A stretch of 64,000 nt of DNA, from contig CM068839.1 in NCBI GenBank assembly GCA_028554795.2, positions 44,327,117 to 44,391,116 on the forward strand. The letters are read 5' to 3'. Shown one piece after another: positions 15,815-53,042 of this stretch. Origin of the DNA: Sinohyriopsis cumingii (taxonomy: Eukaryota > Mollusca > Bivalvia > Unionida > Unionidae). The translations under genes were made by a program, and so were the position numbers. Numbering within the stretch: the first letter of the stretch is position 1; the number at the start of each line of letters is the position of its first letter. Below the pieces are notes generated by a model. That model was not told where the DNA came from, searched no databases, and saw only the letters and a program-made list of their open reading frames with translations.

Positions 15815-16060
15815 TTGTTGTTGTTGTGGGGTTTAACGCCATTTTTCAGCACGATAGGCTATACCTGGCGGCCAGTATTAATGGTGGAGGAAGAACCCGG
15901 AAAACCCCGGAAAGAACCACCGACCCACGAGAAGCTACTGGCAAGCTTTCTCACATGCCCACATTGGCTGAATCTTAGACTCGAACCGCTGCAGACAGAG
16001 GTGAGATGGCAGTGATCCGTAACGAAGAGCGCTTTAGACCACTCGGCCACTCGGGGCCCC
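15815..16060 (-). mobile_element. Full-length tRNA-derived SINE with 11-bp target duplication
   Basis: On the reverse strand it begins GGGGCCCCGAGTGGCCGAGT, a tRNA-like head with a box A-like block (GTGGCCGAGTGG) and a box B-like GGTTCGAGTC. A body with CTTTCCGGGGTTTTCCGGGT follows, and a (CAA)n tail. TCTAAATAATG flanks it perfectly at 15804-15814 and 16061-16071, so the insertion is fairly young. The head resembles tRNA-Leu/Ser. The family may be one of the known molluscan V-SINE-like families, which I cannot verify. Confidence 0.9.
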
Positions 16061-39640: not shown

Positions 39641-39647
39641 GTTTGTG

Positions 39648-40262
39648 GCACTATGGTCAATGTTATTGGTAGGGAAAATGGCACATAATGTGGCATTACG
39701 GTCAGTGTTATTGGTAGGGAAAATGGCACATAATGTGGCACTACGGTCAATGTTATTGGTAGGGAAAATGGCACATAATGTGGCACTACGGTCAATGTTA
39801 TTGGTAGGAAAAAATGGCACATAATGTGGCACTACGGTCAATGTTATTAGTAGGGAAAATGGCACATAATGTGGCATTACGGTCAATGTTATTGGTAGGG
39901 AAAATGGCACATAATGTGGCACTACAGTCAGTGTTATTGGTAGGGAAAATGGCACATAATGTGGCACTACGGTCAATGTTATTGGTAGGGAAAATGGCAC
40001 ATAATGTGGCACTACAGTCAGTGTTATTGGTAGGGAAAATGGCACATAATGTGGCACTACGGTCAATGTTATTGGTAGGGAAAATGGCACATAATGTGGC
40101 ATTACGGTCAATGTTATTGGTAGGGAAAATGGCACATAATGTGGCATTACGGTCAATGTTATTGGTAGGTAAAATGGCACATAATGTGGCACTATGGTCA
40201 ATGTTATTGGTAGGGAAAATGGCACATAATGTGGCACTATGGTCAATGTTATTGGTAGGAAA
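39648..40262. repeat. 45-bp minisatellite, about 13.6 copies
   Basis: Units of ATGGCACATAATGTGGCACT plus ACGGTCAATGTTATTGGTAG plus GGAAA. The frames of up to 207 codons on both strands exist because 45 is a multiple of three. Confidence 0.97.
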
Positions 40263-40918
40263 AAAGCCCTACTTAGTTCTTTTAAACTATATTTAGTTTA
40301 CCCCTTGATAATTCCCTTAGATTTGTGGAAAGGAGTCAAGAATTAGCACTTGTTCAAAATATATTTATAACATCATGCATTTAGGTTGGTGGTATATCGA
40401 ATTTACTTTGTCTATGACTGTGGGTCCATCTGTCCTACTTGTTCATGCTAAAACTCCTATACAGCTTCTCCTCTTAACATTAAACTTGCACTGTGTGTCA
40501 ATTTGGGATGAGTATATGTGTGTACCATATAAATAATCATCGTCCTTTTATTGTGAGAGAGAGTAAGAGAGCTCTGTGATAACAAACTTTCGATAAGTAC
40601 ACCTGGAGATGATCCCCCCCACCAATTGCATTGCACAACAAATTACTAGCTTTATCCACTGTTCTAATGCTACTTATGAAAACTGCTTTACTTCAGGGAG
40701 AGTACATTACCATCTATTAAAGCTACTCCATCCCATCATTGAGAGCAGTACATAGTCTTTTATTAGTTTTTATTATCACATAAATTAACCCAAAATCATC
40801 AACATCCACTCTCACACTGTTTACGTTTTGAGTACTATTTTGATTTGGTGCGTGATCATATCATAGTCAAGCTATTTTTAGACGAGGAAAGCCCTACGTA
40901 CATTGAAGTTTGTCCACC
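40263..40918. other. Intergenic, no feature recognised
   Basis: AT-rich non-coding sequence. Confidence 0.4.
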
Positions 40919-44122: not shown

Positions 44123-44449
44123 TTACTCGTCCTTCTGCCTATTTTTGTAACTCACACATTTAACACTTTTCCCAGGATTTAAAATGTCCAAAGGTATGTC
44201 TGGAACAGCGCAAACTTTTAGTCTAGGTCTAGCATTTGCGTATCTTTGAGCTGCTATTTTTTCATGATCCCTCTCGTAACATTCCTTTGAGAAATGTAAC
44301 GAGCACATAATGCTGTATGGTGTTGCTTTGAAATCGACTCATTTGCAATGATGTACCCATTCTTTCATTATGCCTTTATCGTTTGGAAAAGATTTTTTAA
44401 AATGTCAACAGGCATTTATTAATGTTCTATTACACCCGTAAGCAACGCA
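44123..44449 (-). pseudogene. THAP zinc-finger remnant
   Basis: Reading the minus strand from 44449: C-V-A-Y-G-C, then KKSFPNDKGIMKEWVHHC, then CSLHFSKECYERDHE, and AVPDIPLDI. The C-x4-C ... C-x2-H ligands, the Trp and the closing AVP motif are the THAP signature. Two in-frame TGA codons break it. Downstream minus-strand frames at 43885-44122 may be the continuation. Confidence 0.75.
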
Positions 44450-46492: not shown

Positions 46493-46613
46493 CTACTCTG
46501 GCTCAATACGATTCCCAGATCTGGCAATGGGGATCAGCAGACTGCGGTACTCGTGTGGAAGATACTGCTCAATCAATGAAGTCAAACTTCTTTTTTCGGT
46601 AACGAAGCCTTGT
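46493..46613 (-). CDS. CENPT: CENPT last exon: C-terminus of the histone fold
   Basis: Acceptor TTTTTTTTCTTCAG. The first base completes the Arg codon of the previous exon, giving LLIRR|QGFVTEKRSLTSLIEQYL across and after the junction. The exon then reads PHEYRSLLIPIARSGNRIEP before stop TAG (46493-46495). The QG-x-VT linker, the helix ending YLP-x-EYR-x-LLIP and the Ser-Gly-Asn close are the hallmark C-terminus of CENP-T. The last intron (46614-52084) is about 5.5 kb and contains an intact transposon. Confidence 0.92.
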
Positions 46614-48338
46614 CTGAAGAAAAAAATGATATAAAAAAGATGCATAGCCACTTGGGTTTTACTGCTGGATAAATTTTTTTTAATACAAATATTTGAAACA
46701 AATAAATAAATGGGTAAAACTTCAAAAGCTCAAACAAGAATCGCTCTTACACAGCATTACTCTAATGACTATTTTAGTATTGTTGTAAAGACTTCTCTTG
46801 GCAGTAATTTAGAAATTCTAAGCTAATGAAAATTAAAACCAATTCTGGGTGCACATCACATCGACTTTTCAAAGTTCTACTGTAAATAAATAAATAAATA
46901 AATGATTCACATGCCCCCACTAAAATAGAAAATTCTAAATCTGAAAGTTCAAAAATGTATTTGTAGTATTGCTGTAAGAATACAAAAATCTAAATGCATA
47001 AGCTATTTATGATTGCAAACAAGCATATACATTTTTTTCATTCATCTACCTCAAGTGGTTTTTCTTAATCATGCAAGTAGTTTTCTCGGGGAAAAAATTG
47101 TCCCATCAAGAAATGTGTAAAACTTGAAATAATTGCAATAATGTCCTGAAGATCTAATAGGTTTTCTGCATTTGAATACAAATGTGCATGCTAAATTTCA
47201 TTGACAATCTCATAAAATATTTGTTTAATTGTGCAAACAATAAAAGTCTGAACCTGATGTGATGTGTTTGTAAAACATGTATGCCTCCACTGCAGACCAA
47301 AATGTCAAATTCCAAGAAGTTCAAAAATTGAGAAAAGACTGAATCCAAACATGTCAAATACATATGCATACAAACATACACATATCAGTTTGTGTTTCTA
47401 CACGAAGTGTATTTGCTTAATTGTGCTAACATTTTTTTCTGGTAAGACAAAATTCTGAAGGTCTGAAAGTGCCAAAATGTGGAAAAACTTTAAACATTGG
47501 CCTTAAATTACAGAGGATCTACATATGAATACAAGTATGCCTGCCAAATATCATTTGTTTACCTCAAGTGACATTTGCACCATCATGCAATGGTTTGTAT
47601 TTGTCTACATTAAGCGTTTTAGGCTGGATGGACAGAACATAATCACCCCACCCCCGGCTGTAAGCAGTATGGGCATAAAAACTGCTTTAAGAGATTTAAA
47701 AAAAGAGAAAAAGAATCTATATAGGTTTACAAACACGCATATTACATTTGTCTATCTAAGCTTGTATTTATTTTTATCATGCTAACAAGGTTTTCAGTAG
47801 AATAAAGTCTGTCTACAAAATTGAAAACTTGCTATATTGGCCTGTTATCAAAATTTCATTTGTCAACATTGAGTGGATTTTGTGCAATCTTGTTTACAAG
47901 CTTTTTGGGACAGGTTAAGACATGTCTGGAAGGATGGACAGACATGGCCAAACCATGATGCCCTAAGTACTATAAGTGCGAGCATAATAAATAAATGACT
48001 AAGTGGAATGAGACCGCTCCGATGGCCTGAGTGGTTAAAGCATCTGCCTCTGATGTGGGAGGTCGTGGATTTGAACTCTGGACAAGTCGTAACAAAGACT
48101 TATAAAAATGGTACTAACAGCTGCCTTGTATCGCATGGCGCTCAGCAATAAGAGGTTAGTATTAGGACTGGTCAGCCATCTTAAGTTCATACTCACCTGG
48201 TAGGTTATAGATTCCCTGACTCATTTTTAATTGTGAATAATGATCCCATGTATCTCAATATTTACTTGTTTCCACATAAAACATACTTTACGTTCCTCAA
48301 ACACAAGGTACAATATGCATTTCTGGGAATACTGATTT
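46614..48338. other. CENPT last intron, 3' part
   Basis: 47150-47990 is an old repeat field: units of the type TTGAATACAAATGTGCATGC, AAATTTCATTGACA and TTTAATTGTGCAAACAA recur about every 200 bp, ending ATGGACAGACATGGCCAAAC. A SINE fragment follows. No exon is seen. Confidence 0.45.
48014..48180 (+). mobile_element. SINE, second family, 3'-truncated
   Basis: The tRNA-like head CGCTCCGATGGCCTGAGTGG, a box B-like GGATTTGAACTC, then GACTTATAAAAATGGTACTA and GTTAGTATTAGGACTGGTCA. The tail part is missing. Confidence 0.85.
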
Positions 48339-48600
48339 CACTGGTCAACAGTGAAATCATTACTGACTTGAAAAGGCCCTAATCTGTAGTATTTTGGTGT
48401 GCCGAACACGAATATAACCGTGAAAAATTTGTATTGGCTCTCGTTTTGAAGATATTCATATACCTCATTTTCTATGTTTCACTGTGTAAATTTCTCCAGT
48501 AGGACTGCAGCAACATCCGGAATAATGATGTAACATTGCATAATACCATCATGCTCACATCATCCACAGTTGATTGCATCATTTTCTGATGCAATGCAAT

Positions 48601-48719
48601 ACTAATGCCATGCGGCTGCTGAAGTAAGTTGACGTCAGCAGTGTACTATACATGTGTAGGCCTATTATACTAATGCCAGGCGGCTGCTGAAGCTGACGTA
48701 AGCAGTGTACTATATAAAG
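48601..48719 (+). promoter_or_regulatory. Promoter region of the transposon gene: duplicated CRE-like block and TATA box
   Basis: A block of about 45 bp (ACTAATGCCATGCGGCTGCT ... GCAGTGTACTATA) occurs twice, at 48601 and 48669. The first copy holds a perfect CRE palindrome TGACGTCA (48630-48637) and the second a variant TGACGTAA (48694-48701). The second copy runs into TATATAAAG (48711-48719), a good TATA box about 115 nt before the start codon. The promoter role is inference from these motifs. Confidence 0.55.
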
Positions 48720-48832
48720 CCCAATCAGATAGGTTCAGCATTTAAAATATTTTAGACGTTGTGCGAGACAGTTCAAGCTACTGTTACATAAAACTTATTA
48801 TTTTATCCATTTACGTACAATAAAGAACAGTA

Positions 48833-50521
48833 ATGCCTCGAAAGTGTGTTAATACCGCGGACAATTTTTGCTATATTTGTGGGGAAGTGACATTTGCCAA
48901 CCAGAAGAAAAGTATCAATTCTCAAGTGAAGAAGGCATATCATCTTTACTTCGGATGCAAGGTTGGTGACCAAGACAAGCCTTGGGCTCCGCATATATGC
49001 TGTGCTACATGTACAACACAGCTTTCACAGTGGTTGAATTGCAAAAGGTCATCAATGCCGTTTGCAGTCCCAATGGTGTGGAGAGAGCCAAGCAACCACC
49101 TAAATGAATGTTACTTCTGCTTGGTTCCTCCTCTTTCCGGCGGAATAATGAAGCGAAAGAAGTCGAGAATAGTCTACCCAAACATTCCGTCTGCATTGAG
49201 ACCAGTTCCACATGGTGAGGGACTTCCTATTCCAGAACCTCCAGCAGAATATTCTCTTGATTCATCTGACGAAGACAAAGGTGAGTCGACCTGTTCTTCT
49301 CCTGGTCCATCAGCATGCAGTGATCCAGATTTTCACTGTGGTGCATCATCAACCCCACACAGAATAACACAGGAAGAACTAAATGACCTGATTCGTGATT
49401 TGGACTTATCAAAGAACAAGGCAGAATTGCTAGGATCAAGACTCCAACAATGGAATCTTCTAGAAGAAGATGTCACAATTACTGCATATCGAAAGCGCCA
49501 CCAGCAATTGGAGCCTTTCTTCAGAAAGGAAAGTAATCTGATATTCTGTTCCGATATTGAGGGCCTCATGAATGCTTTAAAAATCACTCATGACCCACAA
49601 GAATGGAGACTATTTGTGGACTCTTCGAAACTGAGTCTCAAGGCTGTGCTTTTGCACAATGGAAACATTCTTCCATCTATTCCAGTAGCGTATGCTGTCC
49701 ACATGAAAGAGACATACGATAACTTAAGGCAGCTACTGAATTCCATTGAGTATAACAAGTACAGCTGGCACCTCTGTGGTGATTTGAAGGTAGTTGCCCT
49801 TTTAATGGGACTGCAGCAAGGATATACAAAATACATGTGTTTCTTATGCGAGTGGGATAGCCGAGCAAGGGAAATGCACTACATGAGGAAGGAATGGACT
49901 CACAGGCAGAATGTAGCCATTGGAGAGAAGAATATCCAACACCCAGCTCTGGTTGAGGCTCAGAAAATCTTGCTACCACCCCTTCACATCAAACTAGGTT
50001 TGATGAAGAACTTCGTGAAAGCCATTGACCGGACTTTGCCAGCATTCCGATACCTGCATGAAAAATTCCCTCGACTCAGCGAAGCAAAGATTAAAGAGGG
50101 AGTTTTTGTGGGTCCTCAGATTCGAGAGCTTTTCAAAGATGACCGGTTCAACAACTTGCTGGAAGGTGACGCGAAACAAGCATGGAATGCTTTTCGCCTA
50201 GTTTCTACAAACTTCCTCGGAAATGTTAGGGCAGAAAACTATAAGGAACTAGTAGAAGACATGTTGATGAAGTATAAGAAACTTGGCTGCAATATGTCTC
50301 TAAAGATTCACTTCCTTCATTCCCATTTGGATTTCTTTCCTAGCAACTGTGGTATTGTTAGTGATGAACACGGCGAACGTTTTCATCAAGATATCGCAAC
50401 AATGGAACAAAGATACCAGGGAAAATGGTCCACTACAATGCTGGCTGACTACTGCTGGACACTCCTCAGAGATGCTCCCGAACAGCTGTACAAGAGACAG
50501 GCGAAGAAATCTAAGATGTAG
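48833..50521 (+). CDS. Putative DDE transposase, uncharacterised animal family, 562 residues
   Basis: A single uninterrupted frame, by far the longest non-repeat ORF in the window. N-terminal zinc-binding region: C13-x2-C16, C42, C57-x2-C60 and C93-x2-C96, with Trp and His between (KPWAPHICCATC). An acidic Ser/Pro linker (about 140-175) and a basic helix (RKRHQQLEPFF, about 220) follow. Candidate RNase H-like catalytic core: RLFVDSSKLSLKAVLLHNG (Asp near 263), WHLCGDLKVVALLMG (Asp near 316), a CFLCEWDSR-x9-H metal-binding insert (about 336-355), PPLHIKLGLMKNFVKAID (about 385-400) and DEHGERFHQDI (Glu near 512). I know closely similar proteins only as uncharacterised, multi-copy animal proteins, from memory. 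The D-D-E assignment is inference. The intact frame argues for recent activity. Confidence 0.8.
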   Translation: MPRKCVNTADNFCYICGEVTFANQKKSINSQVKKAYHLYFGCKVGDQDKPWAPHICCATCTTQLSQWLNCKRSSMPFAVPMVWREPSNHLNECYFCLVPPLSGGIMKRKKSRIVYPNIPSALRPVPHGEGLPIPEPPAEYSLDSSDEDKGESTCSSPGPSACSDPDFHCGASSTPHRITQEELNDLIRDLDLSKNKAELLGSRLQQWNLLEEDVTITAYRKRHQQLEPFFRKESNLIFCSDIEGLMNALKITHDPQEWRLFVDSSKLSLKAVLLHNGNILPSIPVAYAVHMKETYDNLRQLLNSIEYNKYSWHLCGDLKVVALLMGLQQGYTKYMCFLCEWDSRAREMHYMRKEWTHRQNVAIGEKNIQHPALVEAQKILLPPLHIKLGLMKNFVKAIDRTLPAFRYLHEKFPRLSEAKIKEGVFVGPQIRELFKDDRFNNLLEGDAKQAWNAFRLVSTNFLGNVRAENYKELVEDMLMKYKKLGCNMSLKIHFLHSHLDFFPSNCGIVSDEHGERFHQDIATMEQRYQGKWSTTMLADYCWTLLRDAPEQLYKRQAKKSKM

Positions 50522-50738
50522 TCAATGACTTGATTTTTTATAGGTAGGCTATTACAGTTGACCTTTTACTATTGGAATGCATTTCGTTATGTAAACATTA
50601 ATTTCTTGCAGATTACAAAAAAACTAGAGCCAATTTTGCAATTTGACTGTCATATTCGTGTTCAGCACATAAAAATTGATAAGAATTGACTAATTTTATT
50701 TCAGTAACATGACTTTTGTAAAAATTTGTTGTCCAGTG

Positions 50739-52084
50739 TTTTCTGAAAAAGTGTCTGTCAACTTCCTGCACCAACCATTCCCATTTTCATGCATTTTTTA
50801 TCCCTTGGTTGATATCTGTGACAGTTCATCCCTTCCCCTGCCATACTGATTACATGCATATTGATATTCATGCTGCTTCTTGTGTATGAAAAGGAAAGAG
50901 AATAGACTATTTCCGACTACCTGCTGGCACAGACTGGTTCTACAACATACTCAGCTTGCATATTCAGCCATTTACTGGCTGTACACCATTGGTGACCTGG
51001 TGTAGTTCACACTCACGCACCACCAACATTTTCTCAGCAAAATTTTGCACATCTTACAAATTCTCTTGATCAAAAAAAAAAAAAAAAAAAGGAATTCAGC
51101 CTAAAAAAATGTTCCAGTTATATGCCTGTAACTCTGAAACAAAATTTGCAGTCACAAAGTGCTTTGTCGATATGTGCATCTTCAGGTCATTTAAATAATA
51201 TTTACCTAGTTTCTTGGCAATCTGGCAATCCAAAAAAAAAACCACAGGACTATTTGTGCTAAAAAGATTGTGTCCTACAGAAAAAGGGCAATAACTTTAA
51301 CAAAAATCGCAGGAGCAAAGTGATATGTCGGTGTGACCATCATCAGGTGATGACTATAATATTTACAAAGTTTGTGGCAATATATCAGAAACTGCAGAAA
51401 TAGTTGCACTAACGAGTGCCAGATGAATGAACAGATGGGGGAATTATAGACTGTCACACCTGTCAACAACAATATGTGTAACATGACCTGAAAAAAATCC
51501 CAAATGTGAAAATGTTAATTTTTGACAATGTGCCTTTCATGGCTGAATTTGTATCAACCTGTAAAGTTGCAACCTCACCAAGTTTCTATATGGAACAGTG
51601 TCAATTAGAAACCATTACAGAATAATACTTTTAATTAGAGAAGGTTTTGTCTGAACTGTTTCTAAGGCATGGCTTCTTTGTCATTTTTCGGTCCAATGTA
51701 TTTGTTATAGTCACATTATACTGTTTAAGATTTTTTTAAAAAATTCATAGTGCAAGAAATGGCACAGCCACAATTCAAAACTGCATGATGTCTCAGCATT
51801 TCCCACATTCTTCAGTGCTAACATTTTTACTCAACTTTTTGAATTATTTCTTTATATTCCTCAAATTATTTGGCCACCAGAGCGGTCTTGAGGGATAGGG
51901 AAACCATGTATCCATTCAAATGTCAGAACTGGGAATACAGTTCAAGACCATGGGATTTGTAAAAAGAGCATGTTGCCACCATTCCGTCCACGTCTTCAGT
52001 GATCCTTGATGTAAAGGCTACAGGGCACCTGTCCAAAATTTGAAGTAGTTTTCTTTGTTGCTTTCTCCTGTAAGACAAATTTAC
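50739..52084. other. CENPT last intron, 5' part
   Basis: 51110-51450 holds two diverged units of an old repeat (GCAAAGTGATATGTCGGTGT, CATCAGGTGATGACTATAAT, TTTACAAAGTTT) whose relatives are at 53880-54200. A poly-A run is at about 51070-51090. No exon is seen. Confidence 0.45.
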
Positions 52085-52189
52085 CTTCTTATTAAGAGTG
52101 CAACATCATCCTCTGTGATTGTCTTTCTTCCAGCATGAACAGCAAAGGCTTCCAAATCCTTGACCATTTGATCAAAATATTTCTCTGAC
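52085..52189 (-). CDS. CENPT: CENPT exon: central histone-fold helix
   Basis: CENP-T is a DNA-binding histone-fold protein of the constitutive centromere network; it pairs with CENP-W and recruits the NDC80 complex through its N-terminal arm (family knowledge). The acceptor is TTTTTCAG and the donor AGAAG|GTAAAT. The exon reads SEKYFDQMVKDLEAFAVHAG followed by RKTITEDDVALLIRR. The AxHAGRKT-x4-D-x-x-LL motif is the most conserved stretch of the CENP-T histone fold. Phases match both neighbours (2 in, 2 out). Confidence 0.93.
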
Positions 52190-53042
52190 CTGAAAAATAG
52201 TTTATATTGTATGTAAACTGTTATAGATACTTTGTATTACAGCTTAGACGTCATTAGTAAGTGATATACAGCAAGTCATAGCAAATTGGCACGTTAATTG
52301 AAATATTTTCAAAATTTCATTATAAAACTGCGACCAAGATAATTACTTGGAACCATTATGGTAACAGATTGCATTCCTTATGCTTAATGGCATTCTGTCA
52401 AAGGTTGGTATTTTACCCCGAATTATTCTATTTCCTTCACCATATGGATGATCTCACTATTAACAAGTTGCTTGTTTTAACTGTATATCATTTTGTCATG
52501 GCTGAAAAGAATTAAATTTTGTTTGAAAAAAAGTGGTTCATCTGTAATTGCAGGTACTGGGAACTTCCGTTTTAGTAGTGACAACCAGCAGTACTTACTA
52601 CATCAGGACAAGAAGACCAGGATCTACATGTCAGGTCCACAAAGAAACTGCTATAAAACTTTTAACCTTGACCTTAAGGTCAAATGATCATGCAAGTGTG
52701 TTACAGAATGAATTGTCTTGGCTTCATAATGATTGATCCATGCTAGAAGAAAATTCATCAAGGGTTTGGAAATTGAAGCAAATGAAACATAAAGATGCAC
52801 AACCTTAATGCAAAATAATTTTCTAACAATGACCTTAAATACAAGGTCATAGGGACAAGTGAGTATGTTGCAGAATGAATAATCATTGCTTCATAATGAT
52901 TCATGCCACGTATGGTGAAAATCTATCAAAGCATTTAGGAAACACAAGCAAACAAAACAGGTAACACAAGTTTTAAATCTGTAACCTTGACTTAATGGTC
53001 GCTGGGGTAAGCAAATACGTTGTAGAATTTGTCTTCTTTTCA

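Follow-up and report, generated by a model that had tools for sequence, protein, structure and literature searches.

A probable Chapaev3 transposon present in thousands of young copies in the genome of the bivalve Sinohyriopsis cumingii

Chapaev3 transposons, a group of Chapaev within the CMC supergroup, are recognised by CAC/GTG ends, by TWA (W, A or T) target site duplications lying between A and T, and by C(2)C, LH and H(4)H motifs in the transposase (Zhang et al. 2014, PMC4079192). The same survey describes all examined Chapaev3 elements as TWA-flanked, reports that most of those other than Merrow and Garfield have one exon, and gives 2.3-2.5 kb and 556-562 aa for full-length Merrow and Garfield (PMC4079192). 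In EnSpm, Mirage, Chapaev, Transib and RAG1 the C(2)C and H(3-4)H motifs are reported to lie between the second catalytic Asp and the last catalytic Glu (PMC12730594). Here we describe an element from a stretch of 64,000 nucleotides of Sinohyriopsis cumingii (assembly GCA_028554795.2, contig CM068839.1, positions 44,327,117 to 44,391,116 of the forward strand; hereafter the window), in which positions 48339-50738 form an intact transposon of 2,400 bp. Judged by its sequence, this is probably (at a probability of roughly 0.9) an autonomous cut-and-paste DNA transposon of the Chapaev3 group with one intronless gene for a 562-aa DDE-type transposase.

Ends, copies and age of the element

The element and its immediate borders consist of the following features.

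48339..50738, plus strand: complete transposon (identical two ends in 54 distinct insertions; thousands of exact ends in the host genome)
48336..48338, no strand: target site duplication TTT, left copy
50739..50741, no strand: target site duplication TTT, right copy
48339..48349, plus strand: left terminus, CACTGGTCAAC
50728..50738, minus strand: right terminus, reading CACTGGACAAC on the minus strand
48391..48447, plus strand: left arm of the subterminal inverted repeat, aligned to the right arm
50620..50676, minus strand: right arm of the subterminal inverted repeat, found by repeat finding and aligned to the left arm
48833..50521, plus strand: transposase gene, 562 codons in a single exon, uninterrupted from its ATG

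The ends CACTGG (48339) and CCAGTG (50738), which a preliminary description of this DNA had read in the window, are the same in each of 54 distinct insertions from the host genome (2.90 Gb in 1,138 contigs), and 53 of the 54 carry a 3-bp duplication at exactly such ends, as the TTT present on both sides of the window copy had suggested. Other copies prove the boundaries: besides the window, 32 of 42 host-genome matches span bases 1-2400 and one spans 1-2382. The similarity of the two ends, said earlier to extend about 80 bp inward, is real (local alignment score of the inverted arms 50, against a mean of 16.7 and a maximum of 28 in 500 shuffles) but broken rather than continuous, a short terminal match being followed by a strong subterminal block of 48391-48447 against 50620-50676.

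Exact copies of the first 40 bp occur 4,826 times in the host genome and those of the last 36 bp 4,832 times, while the 40 bp around the proposed catalytic Glu occur 4,651 times exactly and 5,100 times with up to 3 mismatches. The left-end, right-end and catalytic patterns read backwards as controls had 0 occurrences, and the left ends are balanced between the strands (2,443 and 2,383). By arithmetic, 4,651 copies of 2.4 kb come to about 11 Mb or 0.4% of the genome, some of them possibly being shorter. The whole-genome counts are free of match-score sampling bias; the 54 distinct insertions are the best DNA matches plus the best protein matches and not a random sample. They passed an end filter of at most 3 mismatches in 24 bases, and left out were one place (L039/L051) and L067, which failed that filter, the truncated L042, L043 and L044, and two members of an older family, L045 and L046. 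One insertion with the same near flanks is found on two contigs, C273 and C5 (L031 and L033), as a duplication or a leftover haplotype.

Lengths were surveyed for the first 100 left ends on contig C1, up to 49.6 Mb. A right-end partner was found for 91 of them, at exactly 2,400 bp in 73 and within 2,364-2,402 bp in 89, with one outlier each at 2,295 and 1,540 bp; 9 of the 100 left ends and 3 of 94 right ends of this stretch had no exact partner. Since nearly all paired copies lie between 2,364 and 2,402 bp, internal-deletion derivatives with these ends must be few, which to our knowledge is unusual for a DNA transposon of such number. The 562-codon frame, open from its ATG throughout as first noted, is kept in 27 of 32 insertions of the DNA-search set and in 49 of all 54, which include 22 picked by protein score. 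The preliminary description had proposed a compact, single-gene, apparently autonomous, CMC-like and perhaps recently active element and had suggested a search for further copies, nearly identical and sharing both the ends and the 3-bp duplication; the host genome holds thousands of them, in support of that proposal.

The duplicated triplets of the 53 insertions are TTA (19), TAA (15) and eleven others (together 19), the base before the duplication is A in 49 of 54 cases and the base after it is T in 42 of 54. The duplication is thus TWA in 34 of 53, a looser preference than in the published description of Chapaev3. At the window site, A/TTT/T, the A before and the T after fit this context and the triplet is not TWA. 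The insertion L021, with the duplication TCC, sits in a repeat of which three distinct empty counterparts (73-78% identical) carry TCC once, one of them in the window itself and the others at L049/L008 (one place) and L071.

15816..16060, plus strand: repeat copy with a single TCC, empty-site counterpart of the L021 insertion, 78% identical

This paralogous empty site with its single TCC confirms the 3-bp duplication for the one insertion tested. A second possible empty site (L002 against L064) was not used, as the junction has gaps. The repeat itself is dispersed, occurring at 15816-16060 of the window and at L021, L049/L008 and L071, and by eye looks tRNA-related.

Divergence from the window sequence is about 0.23% per base (4,651 of 5,100 catalytic segments exact), a value slightly too low since copies with more than 3 mismatches go uncounted. 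Among 29 copies of exactly 2,400 bp from the DNA-search set the mean pairwise difference is 0.35%; for 21 copies from the protein search it is lower, at 0.15%. With an assumed substitution rate of 2-5 per billion sites and years the family would be roughly 0.5 to 1 million years old. Private coding changes number 37 nonsynonymous, 13 synonymous and 4 stop, where the neutral fractions would be 0.685, 0.274 and 0.041; this is what is expected without selection, so the inserted copies decay neutrally and their uniformity is due to youth. Shared variants (8 nonsynonymous to 2 synonymous, against 41, stops included, to 13 among private ones; Fisher p = 1.0) are too small in number for a judgement on selection. 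A recent burst would thus have spread the family, followed by the present decay of its copies.

A decayed sister family exists in many copies across the same genome; two retrieved members align to the transposase piecewise at about 36-76% identity and contain stops and shifts.

L045, 1868-3528: decayed sister-family member, by alignment to the transposase
L046, 422-2096, minus strand: decayed sister-family member, by alignment to the transposase

With a 97-aa piece of L045 as query, 6,682 first-look candidates arose, of which 150 places were scored. Of these 150, 121 (L045 included) match at 66-100% identity; their open frames do not exceed 328 codons, and many contain stops. The other 29 match at 64-65% with frames of up to 565 codons and were taken as the young family. 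Hence the young family is not a slightly altered old family.

The transposase and its place in the CMC supergroup

Along the protein we assigned the following positions; those of the catalytic residues are proposals.

48869..49120, plus strand: Cys-rich N-terminal part with three CxxC (residues 13, 57 and 93), by motif positions
49619..49621, plus strand: Asp263 (FVDSSK), proposed first catalytic residue
49781..49783, plus strand: Asp317 (CGDLK), proposed second catalytic residue
49838..49849, plus strand: C(2)C motif, Cys336-Cys339, named for the superfamily in the literature
49982..49987, plus strand: LH motif, Leu384-His385 (within PLHIK, 383-387), named in the literature
50309..50326, plus strand: H(4)H motif, His493-His498, named in the literature
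50366..50368, plus strand: Glu512 (SDEHGE), proposed last catalytic residue, placed after H(4)H as published

The order along the protein would be D263, D317, C336-C339, H385, H493-H498 and E512, and with this proposed catalytic assignment C(2)C and H(4)H lie between the second Asp and the last Glu, as published. Glu515 is proposed as an alternative to Glu512. A second H(4)H pattern starts at His513, and we infer that the pattern at 493-498 is the motif in question. C(2)C and H(4)H would bind zinc, and the 562-aa protein would be the acting transposase. The Cys-rich N-terminal part gave no match in Pfam and may possibly be the zinc-binding Chapa domain, a domain reported in Chapaev3 and in part of RAG1.

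The ends, the A/TWA/T target, the size and the C(2)C, LH and H(4)H motifs are the published marks of Chapaev3, and the transposase is therefore most probably of a known kind. The preliminary description had taken it for an uncharacterised one, a view that is not supported, as ends, target site, length and motif order all match published Chapaev3. We consider the element a new family of this known kind, without a record among the papers searched, and one that stands out by its scale.

Several points weigh against filing it there. The assignment draws on published descriptions of the group; TWA is absent from 19 of the 53 duplications, including the TTT of the window; the gene has one exon where Merrow and Garfield have two, and Conan_ET is shorter, at 1,865 bp and 461 aa (PMC4079192). 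The transposase had no match in Pfam up to an E value of 10, none in the PDB by profile, and by sequence just two unrelated PDB chains at E 1 and 2. Structure models were poor, with mean predicted local distance difference test (pLDDT) values of 51.4 and 38.2 that are too low for an RNase H fold to be read from them, and none of 75 Foldseek matches reached E 0.001.

A neighbouring possibility is that the element belongs to another CMC branch, such as the CNEST-like clade, and shares just its ends and motifs with Chapaev3. The C(2)C and H(3-4)H motifs are common to EnSpm, Mirage, Chapaev, Transib and relatives (PMC12730594), a CNEST clade that includes unclassified animal transposases has been described as sister to the Chapaev and Mirage clades (PMC12810828), and the likeness to Chapaev3 is one of description. 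Chapaev3 is nevertheless a close fit in its A/TWA/T preference, in its LH motif and in size (562 aa here, 78+484 aa in Merrow), and we hold membership of another branch to be improbable. The intact frame within a conserved gene might suggest a host gene that does not move, or a domesticated transposase, at a single conserved place. This reading is refuted: rather than one conserved locus without terminal repeats, the finding that the preliminary description had named as fatal to its proposal, there are about 5,000 copies with identical ends and, in 53 of 54 sampled, fresh duplications, and the coding changes look neutral. Very improbable, too, is a copy number inflated by the assembly, for example by one sequence placed repeatedly; the one pair of places with the same flanks (L031, L033) would speak for it, whereas 54 distinct insertions lie in different flanks, 53 of them with duplications of their own, many copies carry private changes and the strands are balanced.

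Relatives were also sought elsewhere. Phages gave none in a tblastn search with the transposase, and 4 pattern matches in viral contigs and 123 in prokaryote genomes included none confirmed as relatives. Two places drawn from degenerate patterns in viral contigs (L077 and L078; the other pattern gave 0) were judged chance, being short matches with best E values of 0.20 and 0.12; the matching stretch of L078 also lies in a different frame from an overlapping collagen-like gene.

Upstream of the gene lies a putative promoter, delimited by repeat finding and pattern counts.

48599..48719, plus strand: putative promoter, two near-copies of a unit of about 50 bp, with a cyclic AMP response element (CRE)-like site TGACGTCA at 48630 and a TATA-like site at 48710

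The CRE-like site is one of 3 in the window against 0.29 expected, and the TATA-like site CTATATAAAG is one of 2 against 0.16 expected. The two sites, each more frequent in the window than expected, are suggestive of the promoter of its own that had been ascribed to the element. In the mechanism that we envisage, transcription would start upstream of 48833, perhaps at these sites; the transposase would, by analogy with the superfamily, bind the subterminal repeats and pair the ends, cut at the CAC...GTG ends and insert the element at A/TWA/T-like sites with a 3-bp stagger that yields the 3-bp duplication.

A composite insertion

The sole exception to the 3-bp duplication among the 54 insertions is a composite, L019 (G000:C6:37810561-37816163), which reads CTA, element bases 1-1198, inverted bases 2400-1196, the full element 1-2400, and CTA. 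At both inner junctions an exact element end abuts a TAA (element 1196-1198) that is duplicated, and the outer duplication CTA is kept. Compared with the full copy of the same insertion, the first part has 0 differences in 1,198 bases and the inverted part 1 in 1,205, and both parts share with that full copy three variants that are seen in 0 of 48 other copies. The order of the parts and the shared private variants fit a joint use of ends on two sister chromatids, in one case read from the assembly. Once replicated, the element would have contributed its right end from one sister copy and its left end from the second, both becoming joined to the TAA within the former copy. A search of the host genome for two elements in direct tandem with a duplication in common gave 0 exact matches.

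An ordinary nested insertion followed by recombination or gene conversion would instead draw on the fact that this is a single case from an assembly and that close pairs occur anyway: pairs among the 48 other copies differ on average by 6.7 in 2,400 bases, with 16 of 1,128 pairs at one difference or fewer and 54 at two or fewer. Against this stand the exact terminal bases at the inner junctions on a duplicated TAA with the outer CTA kept, the near-absence of differences (0 in 1,198, 1 in 1,205) together with the three variants absent from the 48 others, and the reasoning that plain nesting would yield a different order of parts. We regard such an origin as unlikely and favour the joint use of sister-chromatid ends. 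If confirmed, the composite would mean that a CMC transposase can act across sister chromatids.

Genomic setting and known systems

The element lies antisense to CENPT, which is on the minus strand, within its last intron. Two minus-strand frames flank it.

52081..52233, minus strand: frame with the penultimate CENPT exon (histone fold); CENP-T_C (PF15511), 4.8e-13; chicken CENP-T residues 30-71
46496..46729, minus strand: frame with the last CENPT exon; chicken CENP-T residues 67-109, 1.3e-9; weak match to PF15511

The second of these reaches E 0.002 and 18.6 bits against CENP-T_C, under the cut-off of 28.1. As the two pieces match consecutive parts of chicken CENP-T (30-71 and 67-109), the placement in the last CENPT intron given from the start is borne out. 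Elsewhere in the window, 39644-40264 holds a tandem array of a 45-bp unit (13.8 copies, 95% matches) that is open in more than one reading frame, and 44126-44338 on the minus strand has a weak THAP-domain match (PF05485, E 0.0034) under the curated cut-off.

In the host assembly COX1 has three matches, as does COX2, all of them on contigs C807 and C1106. The COX2-COX1 pair occurs twice on C807, at a distance of 15,961 bp, and the domain matches within it are separated by 75 bp; on C1106 there is another COX2-COX1 version with a lower score, more TGA codons and a separation of 615 bp. We take these sets to resemble the female-type and male-type mitochondrial DNA of freshwater mussels, in which the male COX2 has a long extension.

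EnSpm/CACTA elements make a 3-bp duplication, as does the element described here, and differ in architecture from its single small gene. The ends here are CACTGG instead of CACTA, and the A/TWA/T preference is a further difference. Transib makes 5-bp target duplications, unlike the 3 bp seen in 53 of 54 insertions. What is shared with EnSpm/CACTA are CACT-type ends and the C(2)C and H(3-4)H motifs, and with Transib and RAG1 the position of these motifs between the second Asp and the last Glu (PMC12730594). CNEST and CNIRT6 of Cryptococcus are also CMC transposases, in their case of elements caught moving, but are fungal and belong to other CMC branches (PMC12810828).

Closer in description are two Chapaev3 families (PMC4079192). 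Merrow, of lampreys, fishes and a dragonfly, measures 2,451-2,455 bp and encodes 78+484 = 562 aa in lampreys, and the CAC/GTG ends and the TWA duplication between A and T are reported for its group; the comparison is one of description, not of sequence, and its largest listed copy number is '>254' against about 5,000 here. Garfield, of insects and a bracovirus, has 2,289 bp, 556 aa, the C(2)C, LH and H(4)H motifs and the TWA duplication; its main family is listed with '>7', 16, 2 and 3 copies and its deletion derivative with 97, whereas deletion derivatives are few here (PMC4079192). In one table of this survey no full-length family is listed above '>254' and no deletion derivative above 281, so that about 5,000 young copies are some twenty times the largest number given there (PMC4079192). 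Titles and abstract openings among the matches listed from open-licence literature named no mollusc Chapaev3 family and no Chapaev burst this large, which is weak evidence of absence; the main text of a bivalve transposon survey has 'Chapaev' 0 times, and its curated library holds two CMC elements (PMC10294476).

The element makes a good candidate for continuing mobility. A functional Chapaev3 transposase, related to the enzyme group that contains RAG1, could readily be sought among the thousands of young copies, most of those sampled being intact; the family would also allow tests of why deletion derivatives are so scarce and of horizontal transfer as the source of the burst. The composite invites a comparison with maize Ac, whose alternative (reversed-ends) transposition has been reported to let ends of separate copies act together during replication, with insertion into the sister chromatid and composite products (PMC4270019). 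Ac is a hAT element of a plant and its behaviour was shown genetically, whereas here a presumed Chapaev3 element offers one case from an assembly. A second paper is said to treat the same theme in Ac (PMC3744419). Tentatively, and at slightly below even odds, we would picture an intact animal Chapaev3 that is still mobile soon after an invasion of about 5,000 mostly full-length copies and whose transposase can pair the ends of sister chromatids and rearrange the chromosome, as a RAG-related counterpart of maize Ac.

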